Assembly: GCA_030827745.1 (NCBI GenBank)
Contig: JAURDW010000014.1
Location: 1-35,397 of the forward strand
DNA length: 35,397 nucleotides
Source of the DNA: Candidatus Poseidonia sp.
GTDB taxonomy: Archaea > Thermoplasmatota > Poseidoniia > Poseidoniales > Poseidoniaceae
Reading direction: 5' to 3'
The notes beneath the pieces are model-generated. The model saw only the letters and a program-made list of their open reading frames with translations, was not told the DNA's origin and did no database searches. Each line of letters opens with the position of its first letter. Position 1 is the stretch's first letter. Positions 18,821 through 32,245 of this stretch are shown here, piece after piece. Position numbers and translations under genes: made by a program.

Positions 18821-20092
18821 TCACTGCACGGACATGAAGCCCGATGGGTCCACGCCGTGGTCGATGGTTGCGTCGTAGCCTATTTTTGAGGTGTTGCCGT
18901 CGTCGTACCTTGAAGGGTCCAGCGAGCTTCCCTTTTGATTGCTGAGAATCAGGGTGTCCTTGTCGGGTTGCCATCGGGTCATCAAGGCCCATTCAACCCT
19001 GACCGGATCGGTGATGTCAATGTCCTCATCAACAACCGTGACCATCTTCATGCTTTTATGACCGTCAAACGCGGCCTTGATGGCTTTCATCCCGTCGTCC
19101 GGATGGACCTTCTTGATTTTCAGGACCGCTCCAAGCCAGCCGCATCCACCTTCTGTCATGTGCACGTCGGTGCAGGTTACAACGTTGTTTACAGCGTCTT
19201 TGATGGTGGGCGCCCGAGGCAAACCCATGAGCGTTTTGTGTTCGGCTTCGCCAGGAATCAAAGCGTGGAAAATGGGTTCGTTGCGATGCGACAGACCGTC
19301 AACTTCGATCACGGGTTCTTGGCGAACATCGTCCACCGTTCCCGTGATGTCAACGTAGGGGCCCTCGTCGTCGTCGTCAAGGGTAATGCGACCCCACCAG
19401 ACATACTCGGCGTCTGCAGGTGCGTGAACGCCGTTTGGTAATTTCACGAGCCGAAGTGGTTGGTCGTACAACTTCTCATGCAGAGCCGCTGCAATGGTCA
19501 GCTCGTCGATGTTCTCGTTGAACGACATCGCTGCTGCAAGCAGCACAACGGGGTCAGGCGCATTGACAACGGCGACCTTGACCTCGCGCCCCTCGGACCT
19601 TGCCGTCGTGACCATCGTTCGCAAATGGCGCGGGACCAACCGGACAACCAAGTGGTTTGCATCGCGGAGGAATTGACGGTGGAAGGAGACGTTTCGTATG
19701 CCGTTGTCTTCGGCGATGATGATGCTGGCGGATGAATATCGCCCGCGATCTTGTGGCCAATGATGCGGGATGGGGATGGAGCGCAAATCAACGGTCTCTG
19801 GCCGAACTTCTCGGCACGGTGCCTCGTCTTCATTCACGATGACGGGCTGACTCGGGTGCTTCATGGCCCAGCCCAAGGTGTCAATGTAGGCTTCGGGCTC
19901 AATGCCGATGGCGGCGCACAACCGGTCACGAGTAAGCATGTTGACGGCAGCGCGGTGGCCGGGGCACTCCTCGATGGCGTTGAACACGGTCATGGCGTGT
20001 TGAGTGGCTTGAGAATGATGCAACATGCCGTGGACAAGGCTCACGGCGCCGTTTTCGTGGGATGCGGCGCCAAGATGGTCGCGAAAGGCCAT
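18821..20092 (-). CDS. UbiD-family (prenylated-FMN) decarboxylase
   Basis: A UbiD-family protein of 423 residues from ATG 20092 (MAFRDHLGAA). Visible family blocks are AAVNMLTRDRLCAAIG, the domain-linking NVSFHRQFLRDANHLVVRLVPRH (with the Arg of the prFMN site), the hinge VNAPDPVVLLAAAMSF, and KIKKVHPDDG near the C-terminus. The usual EIVLEG and GDHTGYY segments read EYVWWG and VDITGT here, as in divergent members. In many archaea a UbiD homologue is anhydromevalonate phosphate decarboxylase, which makes isopentenyl phosphate; the isopentenyl phosphate kinase in this window would use that product. That role is inference. An open frame continues to a TTG at 20227 inside the rps12 promoter; I reject that start. 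No ubiX is present. Confidence 0.85.
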   Translation of the reverse strand: MAFRDHLGAASHENGAVSLVHGMLHHSQATQHAMTVFNAIEECPGHRAAVNMLTRDRLCAAIGIEPEAYIDTLGWAMKHPSQPVIVNEDEAPCREVRPETVDLRSIPIPHHWPQDRGRYSSASIIIAEDNGIRNVSFHRQFLRDANHLVVRLVPRHLRTMVTTARSEGREVKVAVVNAPDPVVLLAAAMSFNENIDELTIAAALHEKLYDQPLRLVKLPNGVHAPADAEYVWWGRITLDDDDEGPYVDITGTVDDVRQEPVIEVDGLSHRNEPIFHALIPGEAEHKTLMGLPRAPTIKDAVNNVVTCTDVHMTEGGCGWLGAVLKIKKVHPDDGMKAIKAAFDGHKSMKMVTVVDEDIDITDPVRVEWALMTRWQPDKDTLILSNQKGSSLDPSRYDDGNTSKIGYDATIDHGVDPSGFMSVQ

Positions 20093-20200
20093 GGTTTCCC
20101 CACGGGGAGGCGTTGCTTGAAGTTGTTCCTCCGTTTCGGGGGGGATGTTGGGGTCAAAACCAAACAACGCCGCCTCGGTTTCGCCGGCTCGGAGGGATTT

Positions 20201-20244
20201 GATTAAATAGGGGCGGTAAGTCGGCAACTTGCTTCAATGAGGTG
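20201..20244 (+). promoter_or_regulatory. Promoter TATA box and ribosome-binding site of rps12
   Basis: GATTAAATA at 20201-20209 is a good archaeal TATA box; transcription would begin near 20230. GAGGTG at 20239-20244 is a Shine-Dalgarno match 6 nt before ATG 20251 and only 3 nt before ATG 20248, which decides the rps12 start in favour of 20251. Confidence 0.55.
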
Positions 20245-21301: not shown

Positions 21302-21516
21302 TGCTTCACTGAAGGGCCCTCCAAAGGCTTTGACGGGCGCTCTACGCCAAGTTTCCATGGCGCGTTGTTATTCCAGCATACATCACACTTGACGTTGTCT
21401 TCTCGGAGGATAAATCGCTTCCGAGTGGATTGGAGTCGCCTTTTTCGGTCCTCCCGAACGCGGCACTTAAGAACCCGATTCAGGTGGGGCAAAATAACGA
21501 GAACACGGTGGTAACC
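21302..21516 (+). promoter_or_regulatory. 215-bp spacer between rps7 and EF-2 with candidate EF-2 promoter
   Basis: No gene is seen. The spacer is long for this window and contains A/T-rich stretches, GGATAAAT near 21408 and ACTTAA near 21463, either of which could be a TATA box giving EF-2 its own transcript. GGTGGT at 21507-21512 lies 4 nt before the EF-2 ATG. The choice between the two TATA candidates cannot be made by eye. Confidence 0.35.
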
Positions 21517-23724
21517 ATGGGACGCAAAGAAGACAACATCAAGAAAGCTACCGAAGTGATGCACATTCTGCCTCAAATCAGAAACTTGTGCATCGCCGCC
21601 CACATTGACCACGGGAAAACCACGCTCTCAGACAACCTGATTGCCGGCGCGGGCATGATGTCAAACGATCTGGCAGGTGCTGCACGGGTTCTGGATTTTG
21701 ACGAACAAGAGTCGGCGCGTGGAATCACCATCAACGCCGCTTCCGCATCCATGGTTCACGGTGTGGAAGGGACGGATTACCTCATCAACCTCATCGATAC
21801 ACCGGGCCACGTTGACTTCGGTGGCGACGTGACGCGTGCCATGCGTGCCGTTGATGGCTGTTTTATCCTTGCTTGCGCCGTTGAAGGGCCTATGCCGCAG
21901 ACCGAGACCGTGGTTCGTCAGGCTTTGAAAGAGAAAGTCAAGCCCGTGCTGTTCATCAACAAAGTGGACCGGCTCATCAACGAACTCCAAGTCACGCCTG
22001 AGGACATGATGGCGCGATTTACCGAGACCATCAAGAAAGTCAACAAACTCATCAAGCAATTCGCTCCCGAGAACAAGAAGAAGGAGTGGCAGGTATCGGT
22101 CCAGGACGGAACCGTGGCCTTTGGTTCTGCTTACCACAACTGGGGCATTACCGTCCCCTACATGGCCAAATCAGGGATTTCCTTCAAGGAGATTTTTGAA
22201 TACTGCAACAACGAAGACCAAAAGACGCTCGCTCAGAAAGCTCCCGTCCACGAAGTTTTGCTCGACATGGCTGTCAGCAAGCTTCCCGGGCCCATTGAAG
22301 CCCAGAAGTACCGCATCCCCAACATCTGGACCGGTGATTTGGAATCTGAAATTGGTCAAGCCATGATGAACTGCGACCCTGAGGCAGAGTTGGCCATGAT
22401 GGTCACCAAGATTTGGATGGACCCCCACGCTGGCGAAGTCGCCGTTGGCCGCGTCTATTCGGGCTCCATCAATCAAGGCGAGTCGGTGTTTGCCATCGGT
22501 GCAGCCAAGTCAGAGCGTGTTCAGCAAGTTGCCATGATGGTTGGCGGCGACCGAATCACCGTGCCGAAAGTGGTTGCTGGTAACATCGCCGCTGTGACTG
22601 GAATCCGTTCCGCTGCTGCCGGTGTGACCTTGTCTCGCAACAAGGACTTCACGCCCTTTGAAGCCATTCGCCACTACTCCGACCCGGTCGTGACCGTTGC
22701 CGTTGAACCCAAGAGCATGAAAGACCTTCCAAAGTTCATTGACGCCCTTCGTTCCTTGGCCAAAGCCGATGCATCCCTGCAGGTGACCACCAACCAGGAA
22801 ACAGGTGAAGCCCTGCTTGCTGGTATGGGTGAACTCCACCTGGAGATCACCGTGTACCGGATTGAGGAAGAGCAGAACATCAAGGTCAAGGTGAGCCCTC
22901 CCATCGTCGTTTATCGAGAAGGTATCCAGGGTTCCAACCGAGGCAACTCCTTTGAGGGCAAGTCGCCCAACCGCCACAACCGCTTTTTCTTTGAGATTGA
23001 AGCCCTTCCCGAGGAAGTCGTGAACGCCCTTCGCGCCGGTGAACTCGGCGACGGGCCGGTTCGAAACAGCGATTCCAAGGAAGTTGGAAACAAATTCGGT
23101 GAGTACGGCATGGACAAGGACGTCATGCGGAAGATCTACGCTATCAACGGAACGAACGTGCTCGTGAACGATACCAAGGGTATCCAAAACCTGCACGAAA
23201 CTCGGGAACTCATTATTGAAGCCTTTAACGAAGTTTGTGTGAAAGGCCCCATCGCCGACGAACCCGTGCAGGGCATGTTCGTCCGACTCGTTGATGCAAA
23301 GCTGCACGAGGACGCCATTCACCGTGGACCTGCTCAGACCATCCCTGCCGTCCGCAACGGCATTAAGGGGGCCATGATGCGTGCCCGTACGGTCATTCTT
23401 GAACCGATGCAGAAGGCCTTCATCTCCGTTCCAAACGACTGGCTTGGTCAAGTGACCAGAGAAGTGACGACCCGCCGAGGCATCATCGAAGACATGCCTT
23501 CTGAAGGGAACGTGACCACTGTGGTCGGTGTGATTCCAATCGCTGAAACATTTGGCTTCTCGAACGACATCCGTGCCGCCTCACAAGGTCGCGCCGTTTG
23601 GAACACCGAAAACCTTGGATTCGAAATTCTGCCACCGCAACTCTTCGACAAGGTCGTTGGTGAAATCCGACAACGCAAGGGCTTGAAACCCGAACCCAAT
23701 CCCGAATCTTACTACGCTGATTGA
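21517..23724 (+). CDS. fusA: Translation elongation factor 2
   Basis: Archaeal EF-2 of 735 residues, the translocation GTPase. GTPase motifs: G1 AHIDHGKTT, G2 region ARGITINAAS, G3 DTPGHVDFGG, G4 NKVD. Domains II-V follow, with the beta-strand ending in DAIHRGPAQTIPAVRN; His602 in this loop is the residue that becomes diphthamide. Dph6, which completes that modification, is encoded at 9828-10475. The C-terminus GLKPEPNPESYYAD is normal. ATG 21517 (MGRKEDNIKK) begins where archaeal EF-2 begins; an upstream ATG at 21430 adds unrelated sequence. Confidence 0.97.
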   Translation: MGRKEDNIKKATEVMHILPQIRNLCIAAHIDHGKTTLSDNLIAGAGMMSNDLAGAARVLDFDEQESARGITINAASASMVHGVEGTDYLINLIDTPGHVDFGGDVTRAMRAVDGCFILACAVEGPMPQTETVVRQALKEKVKPVLFINKVDRLINELQVTPEDMMARFTETIKKVNKLIKQFAPENKKKEWQVSVQDGTVAFGSAYHNWGITVPYMAKSGISFKEIFEYCNNEDQKTLAQKAPVHEVLLDMAVSKLPGPIEAQKYRIPNIWTGDLESEIGQAMMNCDPEAELAMMVTKIWMDPHAGEVAVGRVYSGSINQGESVFAIGAAKSERVQQVAMMVGGDRITVPKVVAGNIAAVTGIRSAAAGVTLSRNKDFTPFEAIRHYSDPVVTVAVEPKSMKDLPKFIDALRSLAKADASLQVTTNQETGEALLAGMGELHLEITVYRIEEEQNIKVKVSPPIVVYREGIQGSNRGNSFEGKSPNRHNRFFFEIEALPEEVVNALRAGELGDGPVRNSDSKEVGNKFGEYGMDKDVMRKIYAINGTNVLVNDTKGIQNLHETRELIIEAFNEVCVKGPIADEPVQGMFVRLVDAKLHEDAIHRGPAQTIPAVRNGIKGAMMRARTVILEPMQKAFISVPNDWLGQVTREVTTRRGIIEDMPSEGNVTTVVGVIPIAETFGFSNDIRAASQGRAVWNTENLGFEILPPQLFDKVVGEIRQRKGLKPEPNPESYYAD

Positions 23725-23734
23725 GGCTTCCTCA

Positions 23735-24196
23735 ATGGTGGCAAGGGCGGTAGGCCTCCATGTCAACCCCGAAGGGGGTGTGCCGAAGCATCCTCGAGAT
23801 CACCTCGTAATCAACCAATCAGGTTGTGTCGGCGACAAGCAACTCGACACTCGCCACCATGGCGGGCCTCAACGAGCGGTGTGCCTTCTCTTGACCTCCG
23901 TCCTTGAACATCTCCAAGCAGAGGGCCACCCCATTCGGCCTGGTACGACCGGAGAAAATCTACTCGTTGACGGTTTGGAACCGGATGCTTTGTCGGTTGG
24001 CGCACGAATCACGGTGGGCGAGGTGGTGCTGGAGGTCACCGGAGATGCACCCCCATGCAAGACCATCAGGGCCTCCTTTGAGGGCGGTTCGTTTCGAGAA
24101 TTGAGCCACCGCCAGCGTCAAGGGCACACGCGGTGGTACGCCCGTGTTCTCGTTGAGGGCACGGTGTATCTCCACGACCCTGTTTCTCTTCAGTGA
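23735..24196 (+). CDS. MOSC-domain protein
   Basis: A 153-residue stand-alone MOSC domain (molybdenum cofactor sulfurase C-terminal type). Family features are GCVGDKQLDTRHHGGPQRAV, the GTTGENLLVDGL segment, ARITVGEVVLEVTGDAPPCKTI with the conserved Cys proposed to carry sulfur or molybdenum cofactor, and the final ARVLVEGTVYLHDPVSL. It is about 10 bp downstream of EF-2 on the same strand, probably by tight packing rather than function. The stop is interlocked with the stop of the convergent isomerase-prenyl synthase gene (TCAGTGA, 7 bp overlap). Confidence 0.88.
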   Translation: MVARAVGLHVNPEGGVPKHPRDHLVINQSGCVGDKQLDTRHHGGPQRAVCLLLTSVLEHLQAEGHPIRPGTTGENLLVDGLEPDALSVGARITVGEVVLEVTGDAPPCKTIRASFEGGSFRELSHRQRQGHTRWYARVLVEGTVYLHDPVSLQ

Positions 24197-25941
24197 AGTC
24201 GTGCGAGTTGGAAGTCGGTCAATTCCCGAAGCGCAACCAAGGCGGGCCCGTCTTCTATCCGGTCGAGGCAGGCGTGGGCTTGAGCGTGAAACGCTTCGGC
24301 CATTTCCCGTGCATATGTGACTGACCCAAGCTCCTGCAAAGCGGCAAGGCCGTCGCTGAGGGAGGCTTCACTGACTTCGTCCCCTTTTCCAAGGGCGCCG
24401 AGCAAACGCTCCTTGACCGGACTCTCCGGTTGTCGAAGCGCATGAATCACCATCAAGGTGCGCTTGCCCTGAGCGATGTCGGACCCGGCGGGCTTGCCCA
24501 AGGTTTCAGAGTCGGAAAGGACATCGATGATGTCGTCCATCAATTGGAAGCAAAGCCCAACCGCTTTGCCCCATTCAGCCATCAATTGGATGGTCTCCTC
24601 GTCAGCCCCTGAAATCCGAGCACCGATTTCAGCGCAAATGAGGAACATGACGGCCGTTTTCCCTTCAATCATTTCGAGGTAATCTTCCTCCGAGACGTTG
24701 AGGCGGTCTTCGAACTCGATGTCCAATTGTTGCCCTTCGCTGACTCGCCGCACCATCCAAGCGATGCGGTTGACCAACGGAGCGACATCGTGAGCCTCAA
24801 GGTTCTCTGCTTGGACCAGGCGTTCAAAAGCAATGGCGAGCATGGCGTCGCCTGCGTTAATGGCCGTTGGCATGCCATACTCCACATGGACGGCGTTCCT
24901 TCCCCGTCGAACTTCGTCATCGTCCATAATATCGTCGTGGACGAGGGTGAAATTGTGGACGGTTTCAATGGCCGCACCGATGTCAAGCAAACCGGAGTGC
25001 GCTTCACCCACCGCTTTTGCGATCAACCAAGGAAGCGTCGCTCGCATGCGCTTCCCACCGCCTTCAATGAGGTGCATCATGGCGTTGCCGAGGCGTTCGT
25101 GCCGTGATGCTCGGAGGCTTGATTCAATTCGGGCTTCAATGAGTGGCTTGACTTCCATAATGGAGGTGAGCAAATCTGCTCCTTCAGCACCGGGGAGCAT
25201 GTGGCTGATGTCGCCCATGTCGTGAATTCGGTCGTCGGCTAGTTCAGCGAGTTTTTCGGCGTGAGCGTGGTGCTGCCACCAGTCTTTGGTCATGATTCGG
25301 GCGGCGATGGAACGGAACCAAGGTGCTACTGCCTCGTGGGCAGGGCGTTCTTCAATGAGCATCGCTTCCAAGGCTTCGTTGCTCACCCACATGACCTCTG
25401 CGACCTCGTTGGGGTTCGGCTTCAACTCCACATCGGCGGTCATGACGAGAATGTGGTCGATTTCTCGCTCAATCCATGTGGCGTTCATTCGGGCGGCGTA
25501 ACGCATCTTGGTCATGAACGTCAAATCGCTTTCGGAGATGGTCGTCGGGTCAATGCCAAGTTCCTGCTCCAACTTCCTGATGGCTGCTCGTTTAACACCC
25601 ATCGCATCAACTTCGTCCAACTCGCCTTCCTCGTGCAGCGGGTGCGAACAACACGCATTGGCCCAAACTCCAGGAAAGGTGACTTTGTCCATCGAGCGGC
25701 GTTGGAGGAGCATTTCCCCTTTGGAATTGAACAGAAGGACACTGAATGCTCGGTGAAAGGCGCCTGCGCCTCGATGGGCTTCCAACTTGGACATCGGTCC
25801 AAGAACTTCATCGCGCTCACTGACATGAATGACCGCCTCGGCCATCAAGGCCGCTTGCGCTTCGTCGCTTTCGCTGAGCGATGAACGGTCATCTGCCGTC
25901 AGTTCAACGTGTGGAACATCACCAATGCCGTAGCCTCCCAT
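24190..25941 (-). CDS. Fused isopentenyl-diphosphate isomerase (type 1) and polyprenyl diphosphate synthase
   Basis: A 583-residue fusion. Residues about 35-225 form a Nudix-type IPP isomerase: HRAFSVLLFNSKGEMLLQRR, the Cys motif WANACCSHP (Cys98 aligned to the catalytic Cys) and the acidic pair Glu158/Glu160 in WIEREIDH. Residues about 260-583 form a trans-prenyl synthase: GGGKRMRATLPW, first Asp-rich motif DDIMD (Asp336-Asp340), GKPAGSDIAQGKRT and second Asp-rich motif DDIID (Asp469-Asp473). Phe331, five residues before the first motif, is the kind of bulky residue that limits archaeal enzymes to C20, so geranylgeranyl diphosphate is the likely product. Both active sites look intact and the frame is unbroken. 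Isopentenyl phosphate kinase, the preceding pathway step, lies 54 bp upstream. A single polypeptide would interconvert IPP/DMAPP and condense them for ether-lipid chains. Confidence 0.93.
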   Translation of the reverse strand: MGGYGIGDVPHVELTADDRSSLSESDEAQAALMAEAVIHVSERDEVLGPMSKLEAHRGAGAFHRAFSVLLFNSKGEMLLQRRSMDKVTFPGVWANACCSHPLHEEGELDEVDAMGVKRAAIRKLEQELGIDPTTISESDLTFMTKMRYAARMNATWIEREIDHILVMTADVELKPNPNEVAEVMWVSNEALEAMLIEERPAHEAVAPWFRSIAARIMTKDWWQHHAHAEKLAELADDRIHDMGDISHMLPGAEGADLLTSIMEVKPLIEARIESSLRASRHERLGNAMMHLIEGGGKRMRATLPWLIAKAVGEAHSGLLDIGAAIETVHNFTLVHDDIMDDDEVRRGRNAVHVEYGMPTAINAGDAMLAIAFERLVQAENLEAHDVAPLVNRIAWMVRRVSEGQQLDIEFEDRLNVSEEDYLEMIEGKTAVMFLICAEIGARISGADEETIQLMAEWGKAVGLCFQLMDDIIDVLSDSETLGKPAGSDIAQGKRTLMVIHALRQPESPVKERLLGALGKGDEVSEASLSDGLAALQELGSVTYAREMAEAFHAQAHACLDRIEDGPALVALRELTDFQLARLH

Positions 25942-25995: not shown

Positions 25996-26805
25996 TCATG
26001 CAAGCAACGAGGTGCCGAGAACGGTGCGACCAAGACATGCATCGGCCACGCGTTGTTCGTGTTCTCCACTCACGAGCATCACCTCAATGCCGCGTTCAAC
26101 GACTTGAAAACCACGGTCAACCTTGAGTCCGATGCCGCCGGTCACGTCCATTTCTGTCGCATGGCTGCCTTCGAAGGCTCGGTCTTTTCGCAAGGTATGG
26201 AGGAGTTCTTGCGCCTCACCGGGCACAGGCGGTGCTGCCAAAACCCCGTCAACACCGCCCATGGCAAAGACAAGGCGTTTTACTCGGGGCAACTCAACGG
26301 CCAGACGAACGACCAAGTCGTCACCGGAGAGAATTCCAAACTCCGCTTCACCATCGCACTTGACGACATCACCGTAGGTCACCAAGACGATGCCGCTAGG
26401 TGCATCTCGAAACACGGTGAGGTCGCCGGTGAAGTCCGGGCCTGTGTTGCTCGCCCATTGGTGAGGCGGGAGGGTGACGGCACTGATATCCCGCTTGGTG
26501 AGGGCTTCCATCACGTACGAATTGAGGGTCAGCATGTCTTGCCGGACCTCTTCAACCGCCTCATCCTGAGACATCTCGCCCTCGAAGGTCTGGTGGTTGA
26601 TTCTCCCCTCAGCGAGGCGATACTGCTTCGCTTTGAGGTGGCCGAATGAACCTGCCCCGTGAACGAGCACCACGTCAAGGTCATGGGCCAAACATGTTTC
26701 CAATTGTTCAGCAAGCCGGTCCAAGATATCGGCTCGGACCGTTGTCATGGTGCTTTTCTCGGTGATGAGGCCACCGCCCCACTTCACCACCACCCGGTCT
26801 CGCAT
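25996..26805 (-). CDS. ipk: Isopentenyl phosphate kinase
   Basis: A 269-residue amino-acid-kinase-fold enzyme that phosphorylates isopentenyl phosphate to IPP in archaeal mevalonate pathways. Signs: N-terminal VVKWGGGLIT (Lys8), the diagnostic HGAGSFGH with the phosphate-binding His56 that separates this family from other amino-acid kinases, the nucleotide-site block GILSGDDLVVRLAVEL, and GGVDGV plus DVTGGIGLKVD. The downstream gene in the same direction is the isomerase-prenyl synthase fusion, so the pair makes an IP-to-prenyl-diphosphate unit. Start ATG 26805; the divergent zinc-ribbon gene starts 86 bp away. Confidence 0.95.
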   Translation of the reverse strand: MRDRVVVKWGGGLITEKSTMTTVRADILDRLAEQLETCLAHDLDVVLVHGAGSFGHLKAKQYRLAEGRINHQTFEGEMSQDEAVEEVRQDMLTLNSYVMEALTKRDISAVTLPPHQWASNTGPDFTGDLTVFRDAPSGIVLVTYGDVVKCDGEAEFGILSGDDLVVRLAVELPRVKRLVFAMGGVDGVLAAPPVPGEAQELLHTLRKDRAFEGSHATEMDVTGGIGLKVDRGFQVVERGIEVMLVSGEHEQRVADACLGRTVLGTSLLA

Positions 26806-31219: not shown

Positions 31220-32245
31220 ATGGCAGAAGATGTGTTGTATATCGGAATTGACTTGGGAACCTTCCGCTCCGTGATGGTTTCTTCAGACAGCCACGAAGTG
31301 GAAGAATTGACGGTTATTGGTACCCCGAAAGACCCCATTGCCCGAAACTTCCTCAAGCGTGACGTTCTCTTTGGAAACGAGGCCCTCAAAAACCGCCTTG
31401 CTCTCAATCTGTTCCGCCCCTTGGAACTGGGTGTCATCAAGGACACACCCGAAGACCGGGAGTTCATCGCTCACTTCATCACCCACCTCATCGGTTTGTC
31501 CGACCCAGAGGAATACGACCGGGTGGTTGCAGTTATCGGAGCGCCCGCCGAGGCCAGTCACGTCGACAAGACCGCCATCTTCGACGCCGCAGCGGGTTCA
31601 GTGAACTCCGCCATGATTATCTCCGAACCCTTCGCCGTGGCTTACGCCTTGGACATGATCCACCACACGTTGGTCATTGATATCGGAGCAGGAACGACCG
31701 ACCTTTGCCGTGTTTACGGTACCATCCCCGGCCCAGGTGACCAGATGCACACTGGCCACGCTGGCGACTTCGTCGACAACCAACTCATCAAGGAAATCCA
31801 ATCCAAGTACAACGGTGCTCAAATCACCAAGGACATGGCTCGTCGCTGGAAGGAACAGTATTCCTTTGTGTCCACGAGCACACCCGACGACCCAGTGATG
31901 GTTGATTTCTCGATTGAAGGCAAGGCCATGACCCTCGACATCACCGATTGCATGCAGCGAGCTTGCGAGTCCATCGTTGACCCCATCGTTGAGAACGTCA
32001 AGAAGCTCATCGCTGGTTCCAATCCAGAATACCACGACGAGTTCCGCAAGAACATGGTTCTTGCCGGCGGTGGCTCCTCCATCAAGGGACTGGGTGCACT
32101 CATCGAGCGCCGCCTCTCGGACATGGGTGATGTCAACGTTCACGTCGTGGACGACCCCGTTCGCTTGGGTGCGATGGGCGGTCTGCGACTCGCCATGGAA
32201 GTCCCCGAAGAGATGTGGAAGAATCTCACGCTCGCCTCGCGGTGA
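31220..32245 (+). CDS. Actin/MreB-superfamily ATPase resembling MamK
   Basis: A 341-residue actin-fold protein. Phosphate-1 loop IGIDLGTFRS (residues 8-17), connect-1 region ISEPFAVAYAL with Glu136, phosphate-2 loop VIDIGAGTTDL with Asp154, adenosine motif VLAGGGSSIKGL (280-291). The Glu-to-Asp spacing of 18 equals that of MamK (Glu143/Asp161 in Magnetospirillum, as I recall). Segments such as GTIPGPGDQM, KEQYSFVST, the NPEYHDEFRKNMVLAGGGS block and the ending EVPEEMW match remembered MamK sequence better than MreB or Hsp70. There is no MreB-type N-terminal amphipathic helix and no Hsp70 substrate domain. A filament-forming cytoskeletal role is the best inference. No magnetosome gene is nearby. 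ATG 31220. Confidence 0.88.
   Translation: MAEDVLYIGIDLGTFRSVMVSSDSHEVEELTVIGTPKDPIARNFLKRDVLFGNEALKNRLALNLFRPLELGVIKDTPEDREFIAHFITHLIGLSDPEEYDRVVAVIGAPAEASHVDKTAIFDAAAGSVNSAMIISEPFAVAYALDMIHHTLVIDIGAGTTDLCRVYGTIPGPGDQMHTGHAGDFVDNQLIKEIQSKYNGAQITKDMARRWKEQYSFVSTSTPDDPVMVDFSIEGKAMTLDITDCMQRACESIVDPIVENVKKLIAGSNPEYHDEFRKNMVLAGGGSSIKGLGALIERRLSDMGDVNVHVVDDPVRLGAMGGLRLAMEVPEEMWKNLTLASR

Follow-up and report, generated by a model that had tools for sequence, protein, structure and literature searches.

The question raised by this locus is whether two consecutive steps of archaeal isoprenoid biosynthesis are carried by a single polypeptide and, if so, how such a protein came about. The locus lies on a 35,397-nucleotide stretch of DNA from Candidatus Poseidonia sp. 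(class Poseidoniia, order Poseidoniales; GenBank assembly GCA_030827745.1, contig JAURDW010000014.1, positions 1 to 35,397 of the forward strand), the whole of which is referred to hereafter as the window. A first-pass annotation, made from the letters alone, had proposed that a 583-residue frame combines a type 1 isopentenyl diphosphate (IPP) isomerase with a trans-prenyl diphosphate synthase. Inspection of the frame, together with its matches to Pfam and to the NCBIfam model TIGR02150, confirmed this architecture: the gene occupies positions 24190–25941 on the minus strand, starts with an ATG at 25941, ends with a stop codon at 24190 and contains no internal stop. We consider it highly probable, on the strength of the comparisons reported below, that the protein is a bifunctional enzyme, that it is the sole recognisable IPP isomerase of its owners, and that it arose by in-place replacement of an isomerase gene, overlap with the neighbouring synthase gene and, finally, joining of the two frames.

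Domains and predicted active sites of the fused protein

The features of the gene, in positions of the window, are as follows.

24190..25941, minus strand: predicted fused type 1 IPP isomerase and trans-prenyl diphosphate synthase, 583 amino acids (Pfam, NCBIfam and order-wide joined frame)
25306..25833, minus strand: isomerase half, match to TIGR02150 (residues 37–212)
25648..25650, minus strand: codon of Cys98 in the CCSHP motif, presumed catalytic and matching in alignment the CGHP cysteine of the E. coli isomerase
25462..25470, minus strand: Glu158–x–Glu160 of the isomerase
25171..25269, minus strand: junction (residues 225–257), including RIHDMGDISHM
24193..25170, minus strand: synthase half (residues 258–583)
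24922..24936, minus strand: first aspartate-rich motif, DDIMD (residues 336–340), with Phe331 five residues earlier
24523..24537, minus strand: second aspartate-rich motif, DDIID (residues 469–473)

As foreseen in the first-pass annotation, a Pfam search of the protein returned both a NUDIX domain (residues 62–209, E 2.8e-16) and a polyprenyl_synt domain (PF00348, residues 282–521, E 5.3e-67); these were the only Pfam domains in the fused protein, and no squalene synthase domain was found among them. The N-terminal half passes the equivalog model for type 1 IPP isomerase (TIGR02150) with 146.8 bits for a cut-off of 105.8, and its nearest solved structures are human IPP isomerases (160–168 bits, 2icj and its kin, which we take to be the human enzyme) versus 56–64 bits for the bacterial isomerases. 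The C-terminal half scores 226.1 bits against PF00348, for which the cut-off is 27, and its best solved relatives, 5jfq and 1wy0, are both named geranylgeranyl pyrophosphate synthetase.

Conservation was assessed on 68 fused proteins from 68 genomes. In the isomerase half, H56, H63, R82, K86, W93, C98, H100, E127, E158, E160 and W208 are invariant in all of them, and Y148 is a tyrosine in 67, the residue being unreadable in the last one. In an alignment, the Cys, His, Tyr and Glu residues correspond to those of the E. coli isomerase, from which we assume the catalytic and metal-binding roles of the Cys, Glu and His residues. In the synthase half, D336, D337 and D340 of DDIMD and D469, D470 and D473 of DDIID are likewise identical in 68/68. 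Thus, the residues singled out in the first-pass annotation (Cys98, Glu158/Glu160 and the two aspartate-rich motifs) stand where it had placed them, Cys98, both Glu and the motif aspartates varying in none of the fused proteins, and the sequence supports the prediction of a bifunctional single chain.

The residue at position −5 of the first aspartate-rich motif of trans-prenyl synthases bears on product length. This residue is a Phe in 68/68 fused proteins, as opposed to an Ala in the second prenyl synthase of the same genome (locus L002, contig C79, with a DDIND motif). By this rule the fused synthase would be a C20 enzyme, and its product is most likely geranylgeranyl diphosphate (GGPP); the second synthase is likely to be a longer-chain enzyme, and a match of its type is present in 28/29 genomes of the genus sample.

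Distribution of the fusion and of IPP isomerase types

A whole-protein search was run on 145 genomes of the order, and the counts per genome were made by hand from the match tables. One open frame spans the junction in 128/145 Poseidoniales genomes and in 19 of the 21 genera, including a genome assembled as a single contig (G030). The annotation had called for such a survey and for a frameshift or stop between the halves to be sought in other assemblies: the frame is unbroken in these 128 genomes, and separate genes are encountered in the genus g9 alone, where three genomes (G109, G150 and G156) carry two adjacent overlapping genes instead. Among the remaining genomes, one from an otherwise fused genus (G127, L192/L254) shows ten consecutive N at the junction, and we therefore rejected it as a true split; in G119 the locus stops at the end of the contig, and in G020 it is in two pieces on two contigs, one of them at a contig start. 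G132, counted among the 128, has a stop further on, in the synthase half near the contig end, the junction being intact. Two side observations concern the same survey. G012 holds two full-length copies of the fusion (contigs C19 and C25), each 78% identical to that of the window, which may reflect a strain mixture or a duplication. A contig titled Rhodobiaceae bacterium (L172, CALDQY010000021.1) carries the Poseidoniales locus and was probably misbinned.

To place the isomerase half among the IPP isomerases of the phylum, we scored 292 genomes with TIGR02151 (flavin-dependent type 2 isomerase, IDI2) and TIGR02150 (Nudix type 1 isomerase, IDI1) and compared the matches by hand. IDI2 passes its cut-off in 187 genomes, IDI1 in 86, and both together in none. 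In the 87 genomes belonging to the class of the window, IDI1 is over its cut-off in 81 and IDI2 in 0; in G030, assembled as one contig, the fusion is the sole match to TIGR02150, and TIGR02151 has no match. The fusion would thus be the only recognisable IPP isomerase of these archaea, and surveys seeking only the archaeal flavin isomerase would wrongly score Poseidoniales as devoid of the activity. The earlier remark that a Nudix isomerase differs from the flavin type of many archaea holds for this phylum too, in which most related genomes have the flavin enzyme (187/292).

The five other Nudix carriers (G280, G282, G327, G433 and G451) have a stand-alone gene on another branch; these isomerases (L249–L253, families f6 and f21) belong to genomes without a flavin type over cut-off and appear to represent a second, unfused replacement. 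Apart from these, six genomes of family f2 (G029, G031, G033, G055, G074 and G082) each have, elsewhere in the genome, a weak hit to TIGR02150 that falls short of the cut-off (57–76 bits) and that in G055 is the sole match to this model.

Gene order, unfused relatives and the proposed path to fusion

The neighbouring genes that anchor the locus are the following.

25996..26805, minus strand: isopentenyl phosphate kinase (IPK), lying upstream of the fusion on the same strand, at a distance of 54 bases (NF040647, 166.1 bits, cut-off 120)
23735–24196, plus strand: MOSC-domain gene (Pfam), between EF-2 and the fusion
21508..23724, plus strand: elongation factor EF-2, a convergently oriented neighbour serving as an independent marker and as the anchor for synteny (TIGR00490, 1029.2 bits, cut-off 738.45)
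18821..20227, minus strand: UbiD-family decarboxylase (TIGR00148, 298.7 bits, cut-off 244.85)

IPK is found directly upstream of the fusion, on the same strand, in 67/68 fused loci (the exception being L080), and by hand count EF-2 lies within about 1.6 kb on the 3' side in 25 of the 29 sampled Poseidoniales genomes with the locus, the genus with split genes included. For comparison, eleven outgroup loci of the same phylum (L103–L113) were picked among high-scoring synthase matches, and ten of them display a tightly packed IPK–IDI2–synthase order. Named archaea share this order; in some of them, 1.3–2.9 kb separate the isomerase gene from the synthase gene. Taken together, the upstream IPK, the EF-2 gene on the 3' side and the outgroup order indicate that the Nudix isomerase sits at the position filled elsewhere by the flavin isomerase.

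The source of the replacing isomerase was approached with a small IDI1 tree, in which eukaryotes are represented by a single row and bacteria by few. Human IDI1 falls there in one clade with the isomerases of this class (support 100/99), to the exclusion of the E. coli type and of the other Nudix copies of the phylum. The isomerase half of the window shares 42% identity with human IDI1, 35–43% with the other copies of the phylum and 33% with the E. coli enzyme, so that identity alone does not single out human IDI1, since the other copies reach comparable values. The IDI1 genes of Haloarchaea and Thaumarchaeota have been described as likely bacterial transfers (2012 review, PMC3533463). No donor of the isomerase was identified, the genome-contig scan having used synthase motifs (best 80 of 585 relatives, several named records being the same contigs as our own genome loci) and the IDI1 tree having a single eukaryotic row.

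Unfused relatives inform on how the two frames were joined. In the sister order, which belongs to the same class (family code f3, presumably Marine Group III), the Nudix isomerase gene adjoins the synthase gene on one contig in 17/21 genomes and is fused to it in none (hand count), the two genes overlapping by 1, 4, 7 or 10 bases. The four genomes of genus g9 (G109, G150, G156 and G188) each encode IPK, isomerase and synthase separately, with a 4-base overlap between the isomerase and synthase genes, or one of 31 bases in G109 with the automatically chosen start codon. The stretch from the isomerase APWF to the synthase GGGK measures 74–95 residues in the fused proteins and 84 in that of the window. 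The isomerase tail (33–35 residues) and synthase head (39) of the sister order add up to 72–74 residues in four loci, and the corresponding sum in g9 is 76 in two loci and 85 in G109; at the junction, no more than some 20 residues are gained. In addition, RIHDMGDISHM of the window resembles EIHNMGEVAWN, the end of the isomerase in the unfused sister-order locus L120. Given the matching lengths and this resemblance, the linker is mostly old sequence: the short linker of the first-pass annotation is indeed short, and is hardly a designed one, consisting largely of the old isomerase C-terminus and the old synthase N-terminus.

We propose the following succession of events. In an ancestral IPK–IDI2–synthase operon, the flavin isomerase would have given way, in place, to a Nudix isomerase that clusters with human IDI1. 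The genes of the Nudix isomerase and of the synthase would then have overlapped by a few bases, as they still do in the sister order and in g9. Finally, loss of the stop codon would have merged the two frames, with hardly any linker sequence added. In the resulting pathway, the neighbouring IPK would make IPP, the N-terminal Nudix isomerase would convert part of it to dimethylallyl diphosphate (DMAPP), and the C-terminal trans-prenyl synthase would prime on DMAPP and add IPP, most likely up to GGPP for the membrane lipids. In the EF-2 tree, g9 falls outside all other Poseidoniales (99/100), in which case one fusion event would be enough; the tree of the locus also places it outside, weakly (73/38).

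Several observations weigh against this reconstruction. By genome grouping and in the tree of the synthase half (85/85), g9 lies inside family f1, and the approximately unbiased (AU) test does not reject its placement inside its family (p 0.39 for EF-2, p 0.32 for the locus tree), so both a primitively unfused and a secondarily split g9 stand. A single synthase clade uniting the sister order and Poseidoniales is weakly rejected when all rows are kept (p 0.035); it is not rejected once three long rows are dropped (p 0.27). IPK was not found within 7–13 kb round the gene pair of the sister order (7 loci, L120–L126). The outgroup order itself is common, not universal: the stretch of L113 showed the synthase only, and four loci fetched through the flavin isomerase (L116–L119) have IPK beside IDI2 with no synthase in the stretch examined. 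As for the distribution, 11/145 genomes of the order have no such locus, showing the distant second synthase only; ten of these also have no full match to EF-2, the essential and usual neighbour, and most of the eleven are therefore probably assembly gaps, while G063 has EF-2 and still no locus. Finally, the synthase half is below the cut-off of every NCBIfam synthase model that it matches, the best being IdsA (289.6 for a cut-off of 468) and GGPP synthase (261.9 for 500). The unfused outgroup synthase of L103 also misses both (305.2 and 300.2), which indicates that these cut-offs are narrow; we therefore name the C-terminal half "GGPP-type" and not a GGPP synthase equivalog.

Possible roles of the tether and comparison with known systems

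The tether most likely keeps the two steps at a 1:1 ratio and close together; true channelling of DMAPP is no more than possible. Each GGPP is built from one DMAPP and three IPP, and for this reason a simple hand-off is not obviously the purpose of the tether; moreover, co-expression or local enrichment would give the same sequence picture as a direct hand-off of DMAPP. We see a nearly even chance that the fusion is a neutral or expression by-product, whereby a stop codon disappeared between overlapping, probably co-translated genes, so that the halves are made 1:1 but work independently and without kinetic gain. The overlaps of 1–31 bases in the unfused relatives, the at most 20 or so residues added at the junction and the fact that genus g9 manages without fusion all agree with this; retention of the fusion in 128/145 genomes and 19/21 genera argues against it, as does the increase in E. 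coli carotenoids obtained with an engineered Idi and CrtE assembly (PMC6751169), in which, however, direct fusions were less effective than assembly through peptide tags. Somewhat doubtful, to our mind, is a channelling or local enrichment of DMAPP, in which the synthase half of the same chain, or of a partner across a synthase dimer, would preferentially capture the isomerase product, leaving little free DMAPP. The stretch between the domain anchors varies from 74 to 95 residues, which speaks against it, and one DMAPP per three IPP makes a strict hand-off less needed. The same proposal draws support from the consecutive nature of the two reactions in one chain, from the lack of any other recognisable isomerase, from the lineage-wide retention and from the benefit of the artificial Idi–CrtE assembly (PMC6751169). 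An improbable extension of it would have the ancestor exchange its Nudix isomerase with a eukaryotic line, in either direction, swap it in place and then build a channelling IPP-to-GGPP enzyme without a free DMAPP pool; with the one-chain dehydratase described below, the pathway would be becoming an assembly line.

Two further explanations call the bifunctional enzyme itself into question. That the isomerase half is vestigial, or serves as a regulatory Nudix domain, with DMAPP coming from elsewhere, might be read from the weak matches in the six f2 genomes, and is in our opinion very improbable: the half passes its equivalog cut-off, IDI2 is over cut-off in 0/87 genomes of the class, and the catalytic and metal positions are invariant in 68/68, on which ground a degenerate isomerase half was rejected. 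That two real genes were joined artificially, by misassembly or a frameshift, might be suspected in a genome in 117 contigs and 81.5% complete, such as that of the window. The same joined frame appears in 128/145 genomes, single-contig G030 among them, and the break in G127 is a run of ten N; independent assemblies thus refute an artefact, to which we assign a negligible probability. We favour a bifunctional enzyme that would have arisen by replacement, overlap and frame joining. This order-wide fusion is built of known parts; it represents a natural counterpart of the tether that metabolic engineers build by hand, for whose effect on flux the sister order and genus g9 would provide natural unfused controls. 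It also documents, slot by slot, how an isomerase family would have replaced an unrelated one in an archaeal lipid operon and then been fused to its neighbour.

The annotation had also considered that the fusion might turn out to be universal and already characterised in this lineage. It is near-universal in the order (128/145), and no description of it came up in searches of an open-licence collection of papers. Words starting with isopentenyl, prenyl, Nudix, isoprenoid or mevalonate are absent from the main text of an archaea-wide fusion screen, whose supplement may list the fusion (PMC11237513). The closest engineered parallel is the Idi–CrtE assembly, where the same two activities were joined on purpose to raise flux, with a 5.7-fold increase of E. 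coli carotenoids; that system, set up in E. coli and yeast, relies on artificial peptide tags (Nat Commun 2019, PMC6751169). Diatoms possess another natural fusion of an IPP isomerase with a later isoprenoid enzyme, IDI–squalene synthase (IDI–SQS), which differs in being eukaryotic and in its partner, an enzyme further down the pathway that does not use DMAPP (PMC6723447, PMC12175399, PMC12168105).

The same two domains occur in one 543-residue frame, a NUDIX isomerase followed by a polyprenyl synthase, on plasmid CP123774.1 (WGP08112.1), whose record names Bacillus subtilis DK01 and a mixed-culture source. The isomerase there is of the bacterial kind (SCCGHP, grouping with E. coli), and the gene has a second synthase and a UbiA gene as neighbours; the fusion is apparently independent of the Poseidoniales one. 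The gene lies at L127:5953-7584, and its best synthase model is mycobacterial, so the host label may be wrong. With the plasmid fusion as query, no relatives were found in a viral-contig scan; 40 phage records matched the fused protein, none covering 80% of its length, nor did any plasmid record reach this value, the plasmid above (H11) being the only known fused record among the matches listed (20 of 514), to which the rest may add others.

Within archaea, the IPK–IDI2–GGPP synthase arrangement has the same order and slot as the Poseidoniales locus, and its IDI2 and synthase genes often overlap; the isomerase is of the flavin-dependent type 2, the genes are separate, and several lineages have a gap of 1.3–2.9 kb. 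Nitrosopumilus (L241) has in this slot a homologue of the Nudix isomerase, whose gene overlaps that of the GGPP synthase by 14 bases; it differs in being unfused, in having an Ala at the catalytic Cys position, and in forming a long branch outside the Poseidoniales isomerase clade. This protein (L241:3962-4642, Nitrosopumilus sp. LS_AOA, with GTFASHP) passes TIGR02150 with 109.7 for 105.8. Either it works differently or DMAPP is supplied by something else. Another fusion in this gene neighbourhood is predicted in archaeon Dive100_bin4.136, where a 768-residue frame (L223:2747-5053) combines RNase J and a prenyl synthase just after an IDI2 gene.

The surroundings of the fusion also bear on the steps preceding IPK. 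In the archaeal modified mevalonate pathway, dehydration and decarboxylation precede the phosphorylation that yields IPP (PMC10040528). The genome of the window contains an aconitase X (AcnX), and the UbiD-family protein listed above is a candidate decarboxylase for the step before IPK; both fit this pathway. By Pfam, the large and swivel (small) parts of AcnX, the presumed phosphomevalonate dehydratase, form one chain in all three genomes of the class examined in this way (G000, G044 and G157), which would be a second fusion in the same pathway. The one-chain gene lies in our own genome on contig C37 (L271:1329-3308) and is also seen in L272 and L273; in the outgroup G377 the two parts are separate genes, the small part being followed by an in-frame Nudix domain. 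Elsewhere in the window, positions 31220-32245 of the plus strand encode an MreB-like protein that also matches the salactin profile and, below cut-off, that of volactin, and is possibly a cytoskeletal actin homologue.

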